DNA of 20,237 nt from Pilasporangium apinafurcum (taxonomy: Eukaryota; Oomycota; Peronosporomycetes; Pythiales; Pythiaceae), in NCBI GenBank assembly GCA_001600495.1, contig BCKE01000058.1, forward strand, positions 1-20,237. The letters are read 5' to 3'. Positions 133 through 20,237 of this stretch are shown one piece after another. Numbering within the stretch: the stretch's first letter is position 1; every line of letters starts with the position of its first letter. The notes under the pieces were generated by a model. The model did no database searches. It saw only the letters and a list, made by a program, of their open reading frames with translations, and was not told the DNA's origin. The translations under genes and the position numbers were made by a program.

Positions 133-1473
133 TTACTTCTTCTTGGCAGCCGACTTGGTCGTCTTGCCGCCACCTTCCTTCTTGTTCACCGACTTGATGA
201 CACCGACAGCCACGGTCTGACGCATGTCACGCACGGCGAAACGGCCCAAAGGTGGGTAGTCCGCGAACGATTCCACCGTCATTGGCTTCGATGGTTCCAA
301 GATAACCATGCAGGCATCACCCGACTTCACGAACTTCGGGAGCTGTTCCAACACCTTACCCGAACGACGATCCATCTTTTCAGTGATTTCCTTGAACTTG
401 CAAGCAACGTGGGCAGTGTGGCAATCCAACACTGGAGCGTAACCGTTACCGATTTGGCCAGGGTGGTTCAACACAATAACCTGGGCCGTGAAGTCTTCCG
501 TTCCCTTGGCAGGGTCGTTCTTCGAGTCCGAAGCAACGAAACCACGGCGAAGTTCCTTCACCGACACGTTCTTCACGTTGAAACCAACGTTGTCACCAGG
601 GACAGCTTCAGGCAACGATTCGTGGTGCATTTCCACAGACTTGACTTCCGTGGTCAGACCGGTAGGGCCGAAGGTGGCAACCATACCAGGCTTCAACACA
701 CCGGTTTCAACACGGCCGACTGGAACCGTGCCAATACCGCCGATCTTGTAAACATCCTGCAAAGGCAGACGAAGAGGCTTGTCCGAAGGACGCTTAGGAG
801 CGTTCAACTGGTCAAGCGCTTCAAGGAGGTAAGGTCCCTTGTACCAAGGCATGTTTGGCGACTTTTCAATCATGTTGTCACCTTCCCAGCCCGAAATTGG
901 CACGAATGGGATCTTGGCTGGCTTGTAGCCAACCTTCTTCAAGTACGCCGTCACTTCGTTCTTGATTTCTTCGTAACGGGCCTGGCCGTACATCACCGAA
1001 GAGTCGTCCATCTTGTTGATAGCAACAATCATTTGCTTCACACCAAGGGTGAACGCCAAAAGAGCGTGTTCACGGGTTTGGCCTTCCTTCGAGATACCGG
1101 CTTCGAATTCACCAACACCCGAGGCAACAACCAAAATAGCGCAATCGGCTTGCGAGGTACCCGTAATCATGTTCTTAATGAAATCACGGTGACCAGGAGC
1201 GTCAATCACGGTGAAGAAGTACTTGGGGGATTCGAACTTCCACAAAGCAATATCGATCGTGATACCACGTTCACGTTCGGCCTTCAAGTTGTCCAACACC
1301 CAGGCATACTTGAACGAGGTCTTGCCCAATTCAGCGGCTTCCTTCTCGAACTTTTCAATAGTACGCTTGTCGATACCACCGCACTTGTAGATCAAGTGAC
1401 CAGTCGTGGTCGACTTACCGGCATCGACGTGACCAATGACGACGAGCGAAATGTGAACCTTTTCCTTGCCCAT
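133..1473 (-). CDS. EF1A: Translation elongation factor 1-alpha (eEF1A)
   Basis: A single uninterrupted frame of 446 residues, the usual length for eEF1A. It delivers aminoacyl-tRNA to the ribosomal A site in a GTP-dependent way in the cytosol. Visible GTPase motifs are the P-loop GHVDAGKST at residues 14-22, the switch region around 70-76 (GITIDIA), DAPGH at 91-95, NKMD at 153-156 and SGW at 194-196. Domains 2 and 3 follow, from about residue 235 to 430, with a lysine-rich tail. The ATG at 1473 gives the canonical MGKEKVH start. Third codon positions are mostly C or G, unlike the neighbouring sequence, which fits very high expression. The next gene on the other side is divergent and 1.2 kb away. 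The 356-codon frame on the opposite strand is a by-product of this codon bias. Identification is essentially certain. Confidence 0.98.
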
Positions 1474-1492
1474 GCTTGAGTGATTTGATTAA

Positions 1493-1660: not shown

Positions 1661-2694
1661 CCTCCCCCTTCGAAGCTTCCACCGATACAAAGCTCAAGGG
1701 TAAAAACGAGTGGCCTGCTGAGCCAAGTTGAGTGGTGGAGAAGCGATCTTGAGATGTTGAGGTGAGGTTTTTTGTCTGTCTCCTTCAATACCCGAGCTAA
1801 AACCTTAATGAAAATAACTGTTAAAAACCTTGAGGTTATTTCCGTGGACGCCCGTGAGTGGTGGAAAAGATGGCAGCCACAGAAGACGAGCCGATCCCTC
1901 GCTTCTGTGACTGTCAGTGCACTTAACAACTGCAATAAAAGGTATTGTCAGTAAATATAAAATTAGTGTCATTATTGACAACGCTAAACTAAAGTCTACT
2001 GTTCATAATAAAAAAGCACATGATGATACTCAGCAAAAAACGCTGCCATCTTTTCATGAATGTGAGAAAATATTCTGCCATTGATACCAACACGAACAAA
2101 TCAGCGACTATGGCTTGTACATTAGAAAAAAAGAATATATCTTGTATAAGCAGACTGTTATATGGCTATAGGAGAAGTGCGCAGGTATTTTTTTTCACAA
2201 TTTGGTGCTTTGCATGAATGATGTGGTTCCTATCAATGTGGACTGGGTAGCTCGTATGGATTTGCTATCAACCAATTAGGTGTACAATTTAGGTGTGTGA
2301 CACAAGGAGCTGATGGGTACATTGCGCTGTTCATCATCTTGGGGCCACTGTTCCATATTCTTCGTCTATACTGAAAAGTGACAAGCAAACGCTTCTGTGT
2401 TCTTAAAAGATTCTCACTATAAGAGTTCGACCATGGCATGCCTTTGTGCATGTATGAAGATCTGTCCACGTATATGCATTTTTTATTCACTGGTTGCTGT
2501 AACGAAATTGGAGGGATGTTGAACAATGAAAATTGGACATGCATCTCTTCATACGAGCAACATCCCGCTGCTCGTAGAGTTGTACTACAGCTCACATCAC
2601 CAAAACGCAAACAAGGATTTGCAAGGAATTCCCGACGGTCACTTTTTAATTCGCATCCTTCCTGCAACCGAAAAAGGTACGCTCGACGAACACA
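1661..2694. other. Intergenic region between divergent EF-1alpha and dioxygenase genes
   Basis: About 1.0 kb shared upstream region. It is AT-rich from about 1940 to 2220. A 144-codon open frame on the minus strand (2233-2667) has no recognisable motif and overlaps the likely promoter of the dioxygenase gene, so I do not call it. Otherwise I see nothing. Confidence 0.5.
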
Positions 2695-3912
2695 ATGACT
2701 CAGTTCCTCTTCGTCACAGCGATCGTTGCATTTGCCGTCACTGCCGGCATTGGATCAGCCCATCTTACTCAACCGCGTGAGCTGTCGATAGATGAACTCG
2801 CGCAACGAGAACATTTCTTCGCCAACGGGAAGCGGTCACTAACGGCCTGCGCTAACTCTGAGCCCACTCGTCTGCTTAAAGAACGCGCTCTTGCTCGACG
2901 TGCTGCCAAAGTCCAGCAGCTCCGAAGGGACCGGCGCTTGGATGTCAACACCGTCATGAACACCAACCACAAGTCGAGTCAAAGCGGCATTACTGCATCT
3001 ACCGATCCAAGTGAAATATTTAGCAGTGAAGTGTCCTGCATCCTTGCACCAGAAACGACTCAAGGTCCCTACTATGTTGGCGGAGAATACATCCGCAATG
3101 ATATCCGTGAAGATCAACCAGGTGTAGAATTGTACATGGACCTACAGCTTGTTGATGTCAATACGTGCGAACCAGTCAAGAATTTGTACGTTGACGTCTG
3201 GAACTGCAACACCACGGGTGTCTACGCTGGCGTTGTTGCAAGGGGTAATGGCAATTCCGACGATGCGTCCAATATCAACACGACGTTTTGTCGAGGACTT
3301 TGGCCGACTGATGCTGATGGGGTCGTCTCGTTCCATTCGATCTTCCCCGGTCATTACACAGGCCGTACTACACATATTCACGTGATGGGATCATACAATG
3401 GCCAAGTCCTTCCGAACAACACTTACTACAGTAGTGTTGCTGCCGAAGTCACACAGATCTTTTTTGACCAGGATCTCATCGACGCCGTGGAAGCCACTAA
3501 GGCGTACGCTATCAATACACAGTCGATAACACTGAACTCCGAGGATCAGATCTTCAATCAGGCTGCGGCGGATGACTGGGACCCGATGATGGAGTACGTC
3601 TACCTTGGTGATTCTGTTGAGGACGGCATCTTCGCCTGGATTTCCATCGGTGTCGACATGACAGTAGCACATGAGATTACACCGGCTGAGATACTGCCAT
3701 ACCGAGGCTCAACAGCTGGAGGTATGACCGCTTCGGCAAGTGGCTCCGCTGCGACCATAGATGGTAATTCGGTGAGTGATAACACCGTGTCTTCATTCAC
3801 TGGAAGTGGTACAACGCCATCTACTTCTTCTTCGGATGCAATTCATGTTGATGTTGTCCATTCATTGCTTTCAATGATTTTGCTTTGTGTGACTTTCACC
3901 ATAGCCAACTAG
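2695..3912 (+). CDS. Secreted intradiol ring-cleavage dioxygenase, probably GPI-anchored
   Basis: 405 residues from the ATG at 2695. Enzymes of this family use non-haem Fe(III) to split catechol-type rings between the two hydroxyls. This one matches the extracellular branch rather than the cytosolic beta-ketoadipate enzymes. Residues 1-22 form a signal peptide. A basic propeptide-like stretch (about 38-82, with GKRSLTAC and several RR pairs) precedes the catalytic domain, which starts near APETTQGPYY at 118-127. The expected iron ligands are visible: Tyr177 (GVYAG), Tyr221 and His227/His229 in GHYTGRTTHIHV. Sequons occur at Asn172, 195 and 241. The tail (340-385) is Ser/Thr-rich, followed by a hydrophobic C-terminus (387-403), the layout of a GPI-anchor signal. 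There are no introns. A role in handling plant phenolics is plausible but inferred. Confidence 0.92.
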   Translation: MTQFLFVTAIVAFAVTAGIGSAHLTQPRELSIDELAQREHFFANGKRSLTACANSEPTRLLKERALARRAAKVQQLRRDRRLDVNTVMNTNHKSSQSGITASTDPSEIFSSEVSCILAPETTQGPYYVGGEYIRNDIREDQPGVELYMDLQLVDVNTCEPVKNLYVDVWNCNTTGVYAGVVARGNGNSDDASNINTTFCRGLWPTDADGVVSFHSIFPGHYTGRTTHIHVMGSYNGQVLPNNTYYSSVAAEVTQIFFDQDLIDAVEATKAYAINTQSITLNSEDQIFNQAAADDWDPMMEYVYLGDSVEDGIFAWISIGVDMTVAHEITPAEILPYRGSTAGGMTASASGSAATIDGNSVSDNTVSSFTGSGTTPSTSSSDAIHVDVVHSLLSMILLCVTFTIAN

Positions 3913-5661: not shown

Positions 5662-7336
<1,675 letters not shown>

Positions 7337-7337
<1 letters not shown>

Positions 7338-7397
7338 TTTCCCGGCGTTTCCAGTTTCCACAAATGCGCGCCAATGAGTTTCTTTCCCGCGAGAAAA
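7337..7397 (-). promoter_or_regulatory. E2F-like sites upstream of DHFR-TS
   Basis: TTTCCCGCGAGAAA at 7383-7396 is a near-palindromic match to the E2F/DP consensus TTTSSCGC. GCGCGCCAA at 7366-7374 reads TTGGCGCGC on the gene strand, a second match. A third, weaker one (TTTTCCCGGCG) overlaps the start codon at 7337-7347. DHFR and TS are classic E2F targets in animals and plants. Binding here is inferred from sequence. Confidence 0.55.
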
Positions 7398-7776
7398 ATA
7401 ATGTAGTTTGCCATTTAGTACGCTGTATTAGTGATATTCTCGCCGAATAGTATGCCCTATAAGTTGTCAATTACATGTCAAAAGGCACTCATCTATTACT
7501 AGAGCACATTTTGCAGCATAATTAGAGAGTGAGCAACTGCGCCATTCCAAGTAATTAAATGCTGAAGCAATGTAGATCTGTTGAGTTGGCTTTCAAGAAG
7601 ATAGCAATTGACTGGTGTTGTGAATGATATGAAATTACCAGCAAAAAGTCAAGTTGTAATAGGTCTCTATTATATTGCATACCCATTCGGGTCTAAGGAT
7701 GAATTGAACCCGGACGGATTCTGTAAATTACGCCGGATGTGGGTATAAAGAAACATACAATGAGCCATTGACGACA
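7398..7776. other. Upstream region of DHFR-TS
   Basis: No gene is supported. An imperfect inverted pair, roughly ATACCCATTCGG near 7680 and CCGGATGTGGGTAT near 7733, could fold or mark a small non-coding repeat. No other signal seen. Confidence 0.4.
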
Positions 7777-9711: not shown

Positions 9712-10660
9712 TTACATATGTAGAAAATATCCGTCACCAGGAAACCCTGAGCATTCGTCAGCCCGAACGAATCGTTTCGTTGGAAATTCTTCAGTGATGC
9801 GCTTGACGAACTGTTCAACAGCGTCTACGGTAGACTGACGGCCCTCATGTAGCAGCAGTACCAATCCCTTGAGACCACATTTATTCATGTTTCGCAACAC
9901 AGCTGCCGAGCTCGTCAATCGCCAATCGTGGGAATCGCAGCTCCATAACATGCTCTTGTAGGATTCTTCCATGACGGTCTTGACCGAGAGTTTATTAGTA
10001 TTTCCATACGGCGGTCGCATGTATCGTGGTCGAGCCCCAATGATGTTGAAAAGCGCATCCGAGTTCTTACGTAGCTCCGCAATTATCTCGTCGTGGTTTA
10101 ACTGAGCCATGTGTGGGTGTGACCAAAGATGGGACGCTACTTGATGACCCCGTTCATATACCTGTCTCACAGCTTCTTTGTTTACGCTTTCCAAGTCGTA
10201 GTTCACACCAACGAAGAAGAATGTGGCCTTGGCGTTATATTTGTCAAGAACGTTCAATAAATCGAGTGTCAATGCATTCGGACCATCTGAGCATGTAAAA
10301 AGAGATGCGTAAGAGATGGAGCCATACAACCCGGAGTTTAGATGCAAAAACCACTAATAACCACAATGACAATCAGTATTTACCGTCAAACGTCAAGGCG
10401 ATGTGGTCCTCATTTACACATTTACGAAACGTTGTGGGCAGGCCGTAGTCGACAAGAGAGTCGCTGGCTCGAAGTCGTGGTTGACTACTCTTTAAGGTCG
10501 GCGGGACTGGAGAGTATTTACTGATGCTTTGGATTGGAGAAGAAACTGTACTGGGTGTCGGCACTTTGGAAAGTTCCCCCGATTTGGAAATTGAAGATGA
10601 TGCTTCCGGTACGTTCATGAGCATTACAATGAGCCACAATGTGAGGACGCAAGTAGCCAT
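9712..10660 (-). CDS. Secreted polysaccharide (chitin-type) deacetylase, CE4 family, two exons
   Basis: Exons 10660-10384 and 10286-9712 give 283 residues. The CE4/NodB fold removes N-acetyl groups from chitin-like polymers using a metal held by Asp-His-His. All five motifs are present: TFDDGP at 90-95 (catalytic base Asp92 and metal Asp93), SHLWSHPHM at 144-152 (metal His145 and His149), RPPYG at 183-187, CDSHDW at 209-214 and LLLHEG at 236-241 (catalytic His239). The chosen ATG gives a signal peptide (residues 1-20) followed by a Ser/Pro-rich linker (about 21-62). An ATG at 10744 is possible but would bury the hydrophobic segment 28 residues in. Fungal homologues mask cell-wall chitin from host chitinases; the substrate here is inferred. 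Confidence 0.92.
10287..10383 (-). other. Intron in the deacetylase gene
   Basis: 97 bases with donor GTAAATAC and acceptor TTTACATGCTCAG. It interrupts the codon of the second Asp in TFDDGP; splicing rebuilds the invariant motif exactly, which confirms the join. Confidence 0.93.
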
Positions 10661-12770: not shown

Positions 12771-13402
12771 GGATAATTCGCTTGGATTTGCCAATGGACA
12801 ATATGAACAGCTGGTACCCTGAACACTGCTGAAGAGGAGTGCAACCAACCTAGTGATCAATCTAATGGTGATGGTGAGATCATGAGACGTGTACAAACCC
12901 AAGTGCCAAGAGCCCATTCTCGTTTCGTGCTTTCAGAAGACTTTGTTACCTGTTGAGATGTACGGTCTAGTCAAAGTTAGACACTGCGTCCATATTCTCG
13001 AAAAGAGAACGTGTCCCCGCAAAAGGGAATCATAACAGGATCAGTTTGTCATTTGTATTCGTGCTGGCACACCCTAAGAGATCGTTACCATGTATTGGAG
13101 TGAGTGCATGGAGGACGCGGGATGCTTTCGATTGCTAGGAGTAACAACAACATCCTTAGTCTGGCAGGTAGCATACTATATAACCTAAGTTTAGAAAGAC
13201 AATCCCAGTAAATTTCCGTGCAAATAATTCTTTGTAGTAATTCAAGAATACATTACAGTGAAGATTGCACGCCAAACCATTGAGCAACAAGAAGCATTTT
13301 TGTTAAGAGCCATTCTCAAAGCGTCATTGCTATCAAGCTCTAGGACTGCACCACCGCCTTTAGCACACAAAAATACTCTATCAATGGCATTTGACTTGAC
13401 AA
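12771..13402. other. Region left of the nested repeats
   Basis: No gene supported. On the minus strand at about 13262-13395 some 45 open codons (VFLCAKGGGAVLELDSN and on) look coding-like and may be transposon debris; I cannot name them. Confidence 0.35.
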
Positions 13403-13665
13403 TGTAAAGAGGTAACCCTCTTTACTAACGCTATATGCACATACGAGGAAGCGTACAAAGGAAAGAAAAGGACCAAAAGGGACTTACTCTTTTAGCAGAA
13501 ACTTAGGAACTGAATTATTGGATTTAATAAAGCTATCTAGAAAGATGAATGACTAGTACTGGAGTGTCCAGCTCGAATAAAACTGATCATACAAATTCTT
13601 ATACCTAAAGAATGTTTTCTCTTTCACCTTTATTCCCAACTCATCCGTTTCTGGAATCATAGCAA

Positions 13666-13685
13666 TGAGATCGTTTATCATCTCA
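13666..13685 (-). ncRNA. Small hairpin just past the Fanzor stop (candidate guide-RNA region)
   Basis: TGAGAT (13666-13671) and ATCTCA (13680-13685) form a perfect 6-bp stem with an 8-base loop, 22 bases beyond the Fanzor stop on the gene strand. In Fanzor elements the guide (omega) RNA comes from the gene's 3' end and flank. Only position and folding support this. Confidence 0.2.
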
Positions 13686-13707
13686 GTTTTTGATTTCGAG
13701 TACCAAT

Positions 13708-15107
13708 TCATCCTTTACACCTCGTGAACGCTTCGAGTCTCCTCTTTTTCTTCATTTGGTCGGTGAATAGTCTCAAAATGTTTATTACGGCGTTGATGTC
13801 ACGGTCCCACAATGTGCAGTGACATTCACTATTCTTGCAGTGTCGCACACCATAAAGACTGTCACTGACAATCCTTCCGTCAAGGACGAACCCCTTCATC
13901 TTCTTGTGACAAACACAACACAGCTTGCTCGTCTTGTACTCGTCCACATCAACAACACGACATCTAGAACCAATTTTCTTCCGTAGGGTCGTTGTGGGAA
14001 CAGCAATGTTGCCTTTAGCTGAGCTTGTGAAACTTGCATCTCCATACGCGATAACGGTTCGTTTATCTCCACCTGTAAGGTTCTTGACTACCTTCTCGTA
14101 CGTCTGTTGTCGACGGATGTAGATTGAACATCGTAGTCTCTTCATCCTCCTTGATGAATACACGTCAAGAAGACGATCCAAATACACGAGACAAAATCTC
14201 ACCTTTTCAAATAGGAGACAAGGTTCGCAACTTTTGCCGAAGGAACCTTTTCATTGAAGGTTTTGACGTCAGGCTCAGCATCAATCCACTCTTTGGTCAG
14301 CTTTGTTCGTCTATGGTAGCTGCATTCTCTGTAGAAACGACCCTTCGACCAGTGGATGACTTTATGTTTCACGTTCTCTCCTTTCGGCTTTTGCAGCGTA
14401 GCCATGCTTTCATCTCTGTAGACAACAGCAGTGAAGATCTTCTTTCTTTCCGGGTCTAAACTGATGATCCGGTCTTCAAGAGAAAATACCTCTTTTTGCT
14501 CTCTCGCGGGAAGCTTTGAACGGGAGATTGTCACACCAACTGACATACCGTTGGGCGAGATGAAGTGCTCAAACTCCTTTCGTTGAGCTATGATCACAAG
14601 ATCTATATTGAAGTACGTGCGCCATAACTCAGCTTTGTCGACGTAAAGCTCAACAGGGTCACCCAAAGCCTTAGCAAGATGCTTCAGGACGGTGGCGCTG
14701 ATCTTGATGAAAATGGGTCTGAACTGTTTCTGTGGAAGCAGAGATCAGACTCGGCAACCCTTCATTCCATCGCTCATATGGGCTTGTATGTCTATCAGCA
14801 TTGTGCCGAGAAAGGGCATGTGACGTTCCGGTGATTTGTTCAAGTCAAGTGGCAGCGATTCGATCTCGTTTTCCACTCTATCCGATAATTCTTGCATCCA
14901 AACAATCTTCGCAGTAGGGATGGGATACTTCTTGAATCTGGAGTACGCGGATATCAGGTTGGATAAGCTATGCTGAGTTTGGGTGCTTGCACGGGCCAGC
15001 AGTGAAACAGGACTCTTGATTATCTTGTCTTGATGCTTTTCAAAATAGTCATTGTCGCGAACGAGAGTTGCAAGCATAGTGCGAGAAGGTGGGTTCCAGA
15101 AGCGCAC
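13708..15107 (-). pseudogene. Fanzor (eukaryotic TnpB-like RNA-guided nuclease), disrupted
   Basis: About 466 codons on the minus strand in three pieces. Fanzors are eukaryotic relatives of TnpB and Cas12: a RuvC nuclease guided by an RNA from the element's own 3' region. The N-terminal part ends at an in-frame TGA (14745-14747), and the same frame continues with LLPQKQFRPIFIKIS, typical of the family. RuvC-I Asp is in SLDPERKK (codon 14454-14456). A frameshift follows at about 14200. Then come YIRRQQ, AYGDASF and the Fanzor-style relocated Glu in VDEYKTSK (codon 13939-13941). A CVC and HCKNSEC zinc finger and the RuvC-III Asp in WDRDINAVINI (codon 13798-13800) complete it. Only the first in-frame ATG (15077) is available, preceded by TGA, so the N-terminus may be clipped or spliced. 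Recent decay is likely, as every key residue survives. Confidence 0.85.
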
Positions 15108-15442
15108 ATTTGGTCAGAACAGTATTAATGGTTCAAAAAAAGATAGAGATCTCTGGACCATCAAGTTAAATTGGTAGAAGGAATGCTTAGTAATAAGAGT
15201 ACATAGTTGTTTACAAATGGATAATCAGTAGGTAGTTACAACCAGAAACACGATCACTTTCCAATTGCCCACCTACCTTACAATCTCCACACGTCAATAT
15301 CGTCAGAACTATTTGTCGTTCTGCAGAAAATGAAATAGCGGAAGAATCCTCAGAATCTACTCCTTTATGCCAAGTGGAGTGCTCGTTGCTAAATCCAGTA
15401 GAAACTAATACACTGTAAAAGAGAATGTACTTCATATAGTAC
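15108..15442. other. Upstream region of the Fanzor gene
   Basis: No firm gene. A 77-codon minus-strand frame (15211-15444) starts with a hydrophobic, signal-peptide-like stretch (KYILFYSVLVSTGF) but lacks any known motif or length support. It may be promoter and leader of the Fanzor element. Confidence 0.35.
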
Positions 15443-15466
15443 AAGTGTACTTCCGGCAGTACACTT
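15443..15466. repeat. Perfect 9-bp hairpin at the edge of the Fanzor insert
   Basis: AAGTGTACT (15443-15451) and AGTACACTT (15458-15466) flank a 6-base loop TCCGGC. Its place at the insert edge suggests a structural end of the element. Confidence 0.6.
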
Positions 15467-15615
15467 GGGGGGAAAAGGTTAAATGGTATACAAATAGCAA
15501 CTTTTACTATTTATTTCATGTGGTAAAACATGTTTACTTATGAACTAACCATAAGCAATGAGCAGGTGTACCTGCAGACCTGGGTAACCCTGCAATGTAA
15601 TGGAGACCCATTACA

Positions 15616-15841: not shown

Positions 15842-16310
15842 AGTGCGACAAGGGACACAGATGCGGAAAAACCTACTGTTTGGGAACAGATAGGTATTCC
15901 ATTTCAAATATGAGGGAGGGAAAGATATCCGCTCCAAGTTTGGTCTGTTTACTAACAGCCAGTTGGGTACACCGCTAATGGCTTTGTGTTAAAGTCTGGA
16001 ACATCCCGTGCAAGGATAACCTTACACTTCCAGTGACAAGAACGCGCTTCAGCCTGGTCGCTCACTCGTTTGGAACTATGCCACGGAGTGTCGAGCTTCC
16101 AGGGTTCCCCACGTAGTCCACTGGCTTGGGATGTTCCCCCTTATGGGTTTTCGACGAACACTTGCCAGGTAGNCGGCAAATTCCCAAATGAGGAAAATTT
16201 TGGATTTCTTCTTTTTTGGTTGGCGCGTATCTTTGTGACCGTCCGCGTGTCTATGCGACATGACACTTGAATTTTTCTCAAAACACCCTCTCCCATTTCT
16301 GAAATATTTT
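15842..16310. other. Non-coding, probably transposon-derived
   Basis: No gene supported on either strand. One undetermined base (n) lies at 16173. The stretch 15842-16060 is upstream of the broken ORF copy and may be its leader. Confidence 0.4.
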
Positions 16311-19643: not shown

Positions 19644-20237
19644 TTAATTTCGCGTGCTCTTCTTCATCTTCTTCTTTGCGATAGTTGTAGTCTTTGTCTT
19701 GGTAATCGTCGTTGTCGTCGTCGTCTTCACCTTCTTTTTCTGTTGCTCCATTGGCAACTTGGCTTGAAATGCAGCCAAATCGCCCGCAAAGAGCACGCTG
19801 TGTGCCCATCCAGCAAATGTAGAAAACCTCGCCCTAAAATGGTCACCGACGGTCTTGTAGACTGTTGGTGTGATGCTCTTCTTGTTGATCAGCGATGGAT
19901 CAAATTGACGGCACGCAATCTGCCATACGTGCGTGTCCACGGGGATGGCATCCAGTTTCTCCAGCGAGAAGAGCGCCACACAGTCAGCCACTTTGCGACC
20001 CACACCGGCAAACACCATCAGTTTCTCTTGATAGTCATCAATGATCACATCGGTAGTAGCTGCTGTTTTACTATCAGTAGGAAGGTCCGTCAAAGCTGGT
20101 GGCTTCCAATCACGAAGTACATGTAAATATCTTTCTCCTCCGAGTGCTTGCAATTGCTCACTCGTCTTCAAAATGAATGGCGCACGATACCCGAAACCCA
20201 GTGCACGCAGTGTCGTCTCTTCACAGCGTGTTGCAAG
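19644..20237 (-). CDS. OGG1: 8-oxoguanine DNA glycosylase (OGG1), C-terminal part, cut by the window edge
   Basis: 197 codons are visible; the frame stays open to 20237, so the N-terminal half lies outside. OGG1 removes 8-oxoguanine opposite cytosine and nicks the abasic site. The visible part starts within the HhH-GPD fold: LRALGFGYRAPFI is the usual block preceding it. The hairpin-helix-hairpin follows as FAGVGRKVADC with the Schiff-base Lys (codon 19992-19994). IPVDTHVWQIACR carries the catalytic Asp (codon 19935-19937), and FSTFAGWAHSVLFAGDL matches the family's final helices. The last 30 residues are Lys/Thr repeats (KKKVKTTTTT, AKKKMKKS), a possible nuclear signal grown from a GTC-type repeat. 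No intron is seen in this part. Confidence 0.95.
   Translation of the reverse strand, partial: LATRCEETTLRALGFGYRAPFILKTSEQLQALGGERYLHVLRDWKPPALTDLPTDSKTAATTDVIIDDYQEKLMVFAGVGRKVADCVALFSLEKLDAIPVDTHVWQIACRQFDPSLINKKSITPTVYKTVGDHFRARFSTFAGWAHSVLFAGDLAAFQAKLPMEQQKKKVKTTTTTTITKTKTTTIAKKKMKKSTRN
19707..19725 (+). repeat. GTC trinucleotide tract inside the OGG1 tail
   Basis: CGTCGTTGTCGTCGTCGTC encodes the poly-Thr part of the OGG1 C-terminus on the minus strand. Slippage probably lengthened the tail. Confidence 0.7.

Follow-up and report, generated by a model that had tools for sequence, protein, structure and literature searches.

A 5'-truncated Fanzor1 gene within a TTAA-flanked element of the oomycete Pilasporangium apinafurcum, probably a decayed member of a family moved in trans

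Fanzors are eukaryotic relatives of the CRISPR-type RNA-guided nucleases. We analyzed a window of 20,237 nucleotides from Pilasporangium apinafurcum (assembly GCA_001600495.1, contig BCKE01000058.1), which harbors a Fanzor gene on its minus strand. Our results make it very probable that the window contains a non-autonomous DNA element in a decayed state, whose cargo is a dead Fanzor1 gene truncated at its 5' end, and that this element descends from a TTAA element of about 2.5 kb that was moved in trans. For the question of why so many eukaryotic transposons carry Fanzors, this genome offers a dense natural experiment: a single family with more than 100 insertions, both truncated and long copies, an empty site, flanks whose signature would predict a target-adjacent motif (TAM), and a right-end hairpin that pairs into the target-site duplication (TSD).

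The gene of the window is divided into three open pieces (15113-14745, 14744-14199, and 14250-13708, minus strand). Piece A (14748..15077) extends from an in-frame ATG at 15077 up to an in-frame TGA (lesion 1, 14745..14747), which separates it from piece B (14199..14744), where the RuvC-I Asp (14454-14456) is found in SLDPERKK (14439-14462). The second lesion is a one-base frameshift at 14205 (14204..14206), and it is followed by piece C (13708..14250), which contains the relocated Glu and zinc cysteines (VDEYKTSKLCCVC, 13909-13947) as well as the RuvC-III Asp and the last cysteine pair of the C4 zinc ribbon (HCKNSECHCTLWDRDINA, 13789-13842). Finally, a one-base insertion at 13717 (lesion 3) alters the C-terminal tail. 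All of these features are on the minus strand. The RuvC D-E-D triad is thus complete, with the Glu located six residues ahead of the zinc ribbon, and the initial annotation was correct in describing the three RuvC acids, the zinc cysteines, and the relocated Glu as intact. It had also described one TGA and one frameshift; both are present, but the insertion at 13717, the loss of the N-terminal part, a replacement of the glycine of the RuvC-I DPG motif by Glu (DPE), and the collapse of the right-end palindrome had been overlooked. With a third lesion, about 180 N-terminal residues lost (and with them the N-terminal part of the recognition [REC] and wedge [WED] regions), and the terminal palindrome gone, the copy is not the lightly damaged one that had been proposed. 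A splice model that would place the lesions within introns of an intact gene was rejected, as relatives carry the lesion sites within one continuous coding stretch and no such model is needed.

The sequence comparisons support the assignment of this gene to the Fanzor family, and to the Fanzor1 type. Piece C matched the zinc-ribbon family PF07282, whose use as a check had been suggested beforehand, with an E value of 8.1e-8 and 32.8 bits, which is above the cutoff of 26.3 and hence not due to chance; against the NCBIfam TnpB model it reached 29.6 bits, below the cutoff of 100. An unaltered relative of the window type (L042), with an open frame of 475 amino acids spanning the entire RuvC and zinc part, scored 22.3 bits against PF07282, under the cutoff of 26.3, and its only significant match among solved structures was SpuFz1 (E=6.7e-6). 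A seven-row profile, in which two rows are pieces from the window, led to the same SpuFz1 chain (E=1.8e-6), while piece C alone had GtFz1 as its best but weak match (E=0.074). A frame of the long subtype introduced below (L022, the N-terminal part and beyond) had no match in the PDB, and a scan of IMG/VR with L042 revealed no relative. The family named in the initial annotation is therefore upheld by the PF07282 match of the window's own piece and by SpuFz1, which was reached via L042 and the profile. The Fanzor signature, DPG at RuvC-I and the relocated Glu, is defined in PMC10711439, where the last cysteine pair is given as CxxC; that of the window is Cx4C. Among 52 copies of the family (60 fetched loci minus 8 repeats of the same place; 32 of the window subtype and 20 of the long subtype), DPG is found in at least 31, as counted from the eight commonest forms listed, and in the commonest forms the relocated Glu lies six residues upstream of the first zinc cysteine. 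DPG is consequently a property of the family that the window copy has lost. By analogy with characterized members, the ancestral intact Fanzors would have carried out RNA-guided DNA cleavage.

The extent of the element was determined from a second repeat, X, in which it is nested. The left and right parts of X lie at 13400..13622 and 15483..15615 (plus strand), the latter ending with TGTAATGGAGACCCATTACA, and when the joined flanks were used as a query, 33 of 42 rows matched across the junction. In the four uninserted copies of X that were read, the site is single (three copies have TTAA and one has ATAA), whereas the window has a copy on each side: TTAA on the 5' (left) side of the gene (15479..15482) and TTCA, one base off, on its 3' (right) side (13623..13626). 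The element therefore corresponds to 13627..15478 (1,852 bp, minus strand), flanked by a 4-bp duplication, boundaries with which the sister elements agree; TTAG/TTAG and TTAT/TTAT flanks in two other copies likewise support a duplication of 4 bp. Its left (5') end (15443..15478, minus strand) consists of the terminal inverted repeat (TIR) CCTTTTCCCCCC followed by a AAGTGTACT/AGTACACTT hairpin, and is kept in sister copies. At the right (3') end only a TIR remnant is present (13627..13637, minus strand), and the palindrome of about 50 bp seen in the sister copy L040 is gone. Between the left end and the coding region, a 5' module characteristic of the window subtype (15055..15442, minus strand; the inner boundary is approximate) replaces the N-terminal coding part. 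Searches with Rfam at the gathering threshold gave no match in the window.

Of the 52 copies, 42 had a readable left end and 37 a readable right end (eight of the latter were read by eye); the other ends were missing, masked, ambiguous, or nested. TTAA forms the left 4-mer in 36 of 42 cases and the right 4-mer in 20 of 37. Both ends were readable in 31 copies, of which 13 are flanked by TTAA/TTAA, 1 by TTAG/TTAG, 10 by TTAA/CTAA, and 7 by otherwise different 4-mers. The fact that the 4-mers differ in 17 of 31 copies, together with the palindromes at both ends and with copies that share 5' but not 3' flanks (one 5' flank is common to four), raises the possibility that the element was not moved by TTAA cut-and-paste and belongs instead with Helitron2-like elements or with others that end in hairpins. 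We consider this unlikely. The common 5' flank lies inside a larger unit that has its own upstream TIR (in three of five loci scanned, plus a fourth), and once these TIRs were found, one-ended movement of the Helitron type, which the common 5' flanks had suggested, was rejected. In addition, the empty site has TTAA once, as against a copy on each side in the window.

Copies of X ending with TGTAATGGAGACCCATTACA were also observed inside Fanzor elements, namely, L042 (the same place as L071), L054 (the same place as L073), L067, and L074, in which they are carried along; the window represents the reverse nesting, a Fanzor element within X. A 430-bp insert (L079, C64:76300-76760), at nearly the same site of another X copy, was considered as a short sister element and rejected as unrelated. 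Its TIRs (GGAAATTGATAGGTGTACCTCAC) are different, its apparent duplication is of 8 bp, and its insertion point lies no more than a few bases from the site used in the window.

The family is large. A search of the 36.5-Mb genome with the conceptual piece B, as the initial annotation had proposed, identified at least 129 distinct places, merged from the best 150 of 202 candidates, and the N-terminal frame of the long subtype gave at least 156 matches (best 150 of 259 candidates). The terminal pattern TTAACCTTTATTCCCCA occurs 426 times within one mismatch, a count in which both arms of a single palindrome may each be included, and the reversed-order pattern does not occur. A genome search with PF07282 (best 150 of 852 candidates) pointed to more than one Fanzor group, with the window's own place not among the matches listed. 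Long copies are about 2.53 kb, with hairpins at their ends, and their full protein is estimated at about 633 amino acids by joining the 182 N-terminal amino acids of L035, counted from the Met, to the 451 amino acids that the L042 frame encodes from the junction onward. Window-type copies have instead a distinct 5' part of about 430 bp that is not homologous to that of the long type, so that the frame opens with the ATG at 15077, with a loss of about 180 residues. In a tree built from the shared part, copies of both subtypes are interspersed, and sequence has thus probably been exchanged between copies. The RuvC-zinc part, from reference base 91 onward, is free of stops and frameshifts in only 2 of the 52 copies (L028 and L042). 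No open frame near 633 amino acids is present among the matches listed, the longest stop-free frames being 549 and 534 amino acids (best 150 of 202 and best 150 of 259, respectively). The intact relatives that had been expected elsewhere in the genome were therefore not found within this family among the matches listed; near-complete Fanzor/TnpB-like proteins are present in other families (L003 and L005).

The nearest copy to that of the window, L040, is situated on the same contig at a distance of 37 kb and has different flanks. The two differ by 13 substitutions in 1,828 aligned bases, and 7 of these are an alignment artifact at the collapsed palindrome, leaving 6 (about 0.3%); the median divergence between all copies in the coding part is 9.1%. 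L040 has both the TGA and the 13717 insertion in common with the window and lacks the 14205 frameshift, indicating that the copy that moved was already dead and that a dead Fanzor was presumably moved by a transposase acting in trans. The recent activity proposed in the initial annotation thus applies to the element and not to the nuclease gene, which had died before that move. The same comparison bears on whether the lesions are assembly errors in a locus that actually holds an intact gene. Single-base indels account for the breaks at 14205 and 13717, and uncertain bases do occur in the assembly (an N at 16173 in the window and a run of N in L038). However, the recurrence of the TGA and the 13717 insertion 37 kb away, along with an N-terminal loss and a collapsed palindrome that are not base-call errors, makes this explanation extremely unlikely. 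The TGA at the lesion 1 codon is found in 10 of the 52 copies including the window (9 of the 51 others), and another copy has TAG; the TGA is common within two clades of the tree and elsewhere possibly recurrent or exchanged.

Constraint on the protein was evaluated by comparing variants present in at least three copies with singletons, as an enrichment of synonymous changes would be expected among the shared variants. The ratio of nonsynonymous to synonymous changes was 2.05 for shared and 2.20 for singleton variants in the window subtype (n=32, p=0.73), 1.50 and 2.21 in the long subtype (n=20, p=0.07), and 1.94 and 2.42 in all 52 copies (p=0.16). The spread of the window subtype was therefore accompanied by no detectable constraint on the protein. 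This result is relevant to the proposal that the truncated Fanzor is a functional short protein, a co-opted RuvC/zinc-ribbon protein comparable to nuclease-derived regulators, in which the lesions are read through or spliced past. The 475-amino-acid open frame of the window-type copy L042, covering the full RuvC and zinc part, and the 86 to 100% identity of the 5' module between the window and the copies scored are compatible with such a protein. We nevertheless regard it as very unlikely when the shared variants show no synonymous excess, all but two of the 52 copies are damaged in the RuvC-zinc part, and the window copy itself has three lesions and no N-terminal part.

These observations lead us to favor an element that was mobilized from outside. 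piggyBac elements duplicate TTAA and have TIRs starting with CC. In the window element, TIRs starting with CC and a 4-bp duplication resemble this pattern, and comparison with the empty site reveals the TTAA duplication of a piggyBac-type element. The genome contains three PF13843 places, including one piggyBac-type transposase gene with an open frame of 546 amino acids. The mobilizer was most likely a TTAA-specific transposase of the piggyBac type acting in trans. The intact ancestor would most likely have been a 2.5-kb element with a Fanzor of about 633 amino acids, TIRs starting with CCTTTATTCCCC, a TTAA duplication, and no transposase of its own, and it would have spread to more than 100 copies, most likely by cut-and-paste. 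Since movement would have depended on the ends alone, the elements would have stayed mobile after the Fanzor genes broke, and such a dead lineage would have given rise to the copy in the window. That an element can move after the death of its Fanzor in turn speaks against a requirement for the nuclease in cis during movement.

Several points weigh against this interpretation. The flanking 4-mers are identical in only 14 of 31 copies and differ in the remainder, mostly with TTAA on the left and CTAA on the right. Sola3 elements likewise use TTAA, and no element combining the ends of the family with a transposase was found in the genome; a degenerate half of a Fanzor-type terminal palindrome lies about 370 bp downstream of the 546-amino-acid piggyBac-type gene (L069:3411), and may be there by chance. 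The TGA carriers are scattered on the tree, and some stops may be recurrent. Gene conversion could imitate a recent movement of L040 and the window copy, and the mixing of subtypes makes exchange likely. Past constraint on the long subtype is possible, with a weak, nonsignificant sign in its variants. Finally, the 52 copies are the best-scoring matches and not a random sample.

Fanzors of other families are present in this genome. L003 (C62) has a near-complete frame of 504 amino acids with a helix-turn-helix, DPG, and the relocated Glu, and scores 147.6 bits against the NCBIfam TnpB model; L005 (C135:15207-18401) encodes at least 572 amino acids with DPG and the Glu in the usual place, scores 133 bits (cutoff of 100 for both), and lies opposite a DDE_3 transposase fragment. 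L004 (C91) and L006 (C2) are broken relatives of L003, in a TnpB/Fanzor2-like group. An end of the TTAACCTTTATTCCCC type, which resembles that of the Fanzor1 family, was found in three of the eight loci L001 to L008 (L004, L006, and L007 [C26]), and no such end is present within the 3.2 kb of L003. This raises the possibility that one mobilization system may serve two kinds of Fanzor.

The right-end palindrome, which reaches into the TSD, maintains its pairing by compensatory changes. We examined 26 of 29 extracted right ends, excluding three with shortened palindromes, and 11 of 30 palindrome pairs had changed on both sides. Four of five measures of compensatory pairing were above all 500 shuffles, which ignore relatedness, and for the fifth (further pair types), 30 of the 500 shuffles came up to the observed value; slid controls were all lower. 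The first base of the TSD pairs within the palindrome as A-U in 10 ends, G-C in 8, G-U in 7, and otherwise in 1. Similar traces would be expected from a cause at the DNA level, such as arm correction in the palindrome or transposase binding. The TIR and TSD are predicted to be part of Fanzor1 guide-RNA scaffolds (PMC10711439), and by analogy with SpuFz1, the RNA scaffold of the intact Fanzors would end in the right-end palindrome and TSD, with the guide taken from the right flank and T|TTAA as the TAM. The window copy has lost the palindrome, so the right-end hairpin cannot form there, and it lacks the intact right-end scaffold that marks a ghost (guide-RNA-only) locus.

The flanks of the insertions are asymmetric. 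Immediately outside the left TTAA, 36 of 42 copies have a T, and on the right the mirror base (A) is found in 12 of 37 (p=2e-6). With exact patterns applied genome-wide, T precedes 43 of 44 left and 10 of 14 right ends among those preceded by A, G, or T (p=0.01). When the left-out base, C, was searched with a looser pattern, 13 rows were obtained, and 11 of them agreed with the stricter pattern for right ends, bringing T-preceded right ends to 10 of 25, a correction that covers right ends only. A TAM would explain this asymmetry, for which a palindromic target site offers no obvious reason, and T|TTAA is therefore a possible candidate. Right junctions of the G|TTAA or G|CTAA kind would be spared by a nuclease reading T|TTAA, and escape from self-targeting could then be a cause of the frequent CTAA on the right. 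However, the right CTAA tracks the inner palindrome arm, with C in 8 of 15 copies with an inner G and in 1 of 11 with an inner A (p=0.036), and pairing or arm correction is at least as good an explanation. As a separate observation, 15 of 42 copies have a CG among the final 6 bases of their left flank, compared to 4 of 42 among the first 6 bases of the same 20-mers (p=0.008, post hoc).

Combining these traces, one could speculate that the TTAA elements are or once were guarded by Fanzor, with a TAM of T|TTAA that is present at the restorable sites and absent from the right junction of the element itself, the right palindrome and TSD acting as the guide-RNA scaffold, and insertions persisting mainly where the left flank supplies the TAM. 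We put this forward as a tentative and rather doubtful proposal. If true, copies whose Fanzor is dead but whose right end is good could go on acting as guide-RNA loci for an intact Fanzor at another place in the genome, possibly of the second kind, in which some members begin with the TIR of this family. In SpuFz1 the TAM is read by R96, Q129, and N133 of REC and by R291 and Y345 of WED (PMC10432273). The first three would fall in the range lost from the window copy and the last two outside of it, a correspondence by length only, as the N-terminal part has no detectable match.

The remainder of the window contains ordinary host genes for EF-1alpha (133-1488, minus strand), an intradiol-dioxygenase-like protein (2650-3912, plus strand), DHFR and thymidylate synthase in nearby frames (5662-7427, minus strand), and a polysaccharide deacetylase (9712-10353, minus strand). 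A weak match to the HhH-GPD DNA-repair family, below the cutoff, was detected at 19644-20237 (minus strand).

A comparison with known systems places this family between several of them. The TTAA duplication and the TIRs starting with CC are shared with piggyBac elements; unlike those, the present element has no internal transposase, carries Fanzor as its cargo, and has long terminal palindromes. Fanzor1 families within DNA elements have been listed for the oomycetes Albugo laibachii (two), Pythium, and Phytophthora (Table 1 of PMC3627910), and the present family may correspond to one of the two from Albugo; the main text of that paper does not mention TTAA. Searches within the open-licence PMC literature revealed no earlier description of oomycete Fanzor elements flanked by TTAA. 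That Fanzor elements can reach hundreds of copies per genome was already mentioned in PMC10711439. GtFz1 of Guillardia theta has a measured TAM of TTAA(N) (PMC10432273, PMC11423790, PMC3627910), the very sequence that flanks the present element, but its locus is reported as seeming to be without inverted repeats (PMC10432273, PMC11423790). The SPu-1 elements of Spizellomyces punctatus, which encode SpuFz1, have the same Fanzor1-type RuvC and zinc part, a protein of 633 amino acids compared to the about 633 estimated here, and a single open reading frame without a transposase, in many copies that are in part incomplete (PMC3627910, PMC10432273). They differ in their TSD, which is TA rather than TTAA, and in their TIRs, which here include long palindromes. 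In S. punctatus there are 42 gene-bearing loci, 19 of which are full-length, and 134 ghost loci (PMC10432273), as against at least 129 gene-bearing places here with no intact full-length member among those listed. The conserved CA outside the left end of SPu-1, together with the TA duplication, forms the measured TAM CATA (PMC10432273, PMC11423790, PMC3627910). In the same manner, the T outside the left end and the TTAA duplication may together form the TAM that we propose for the Fanzors of P. apinafurcum.
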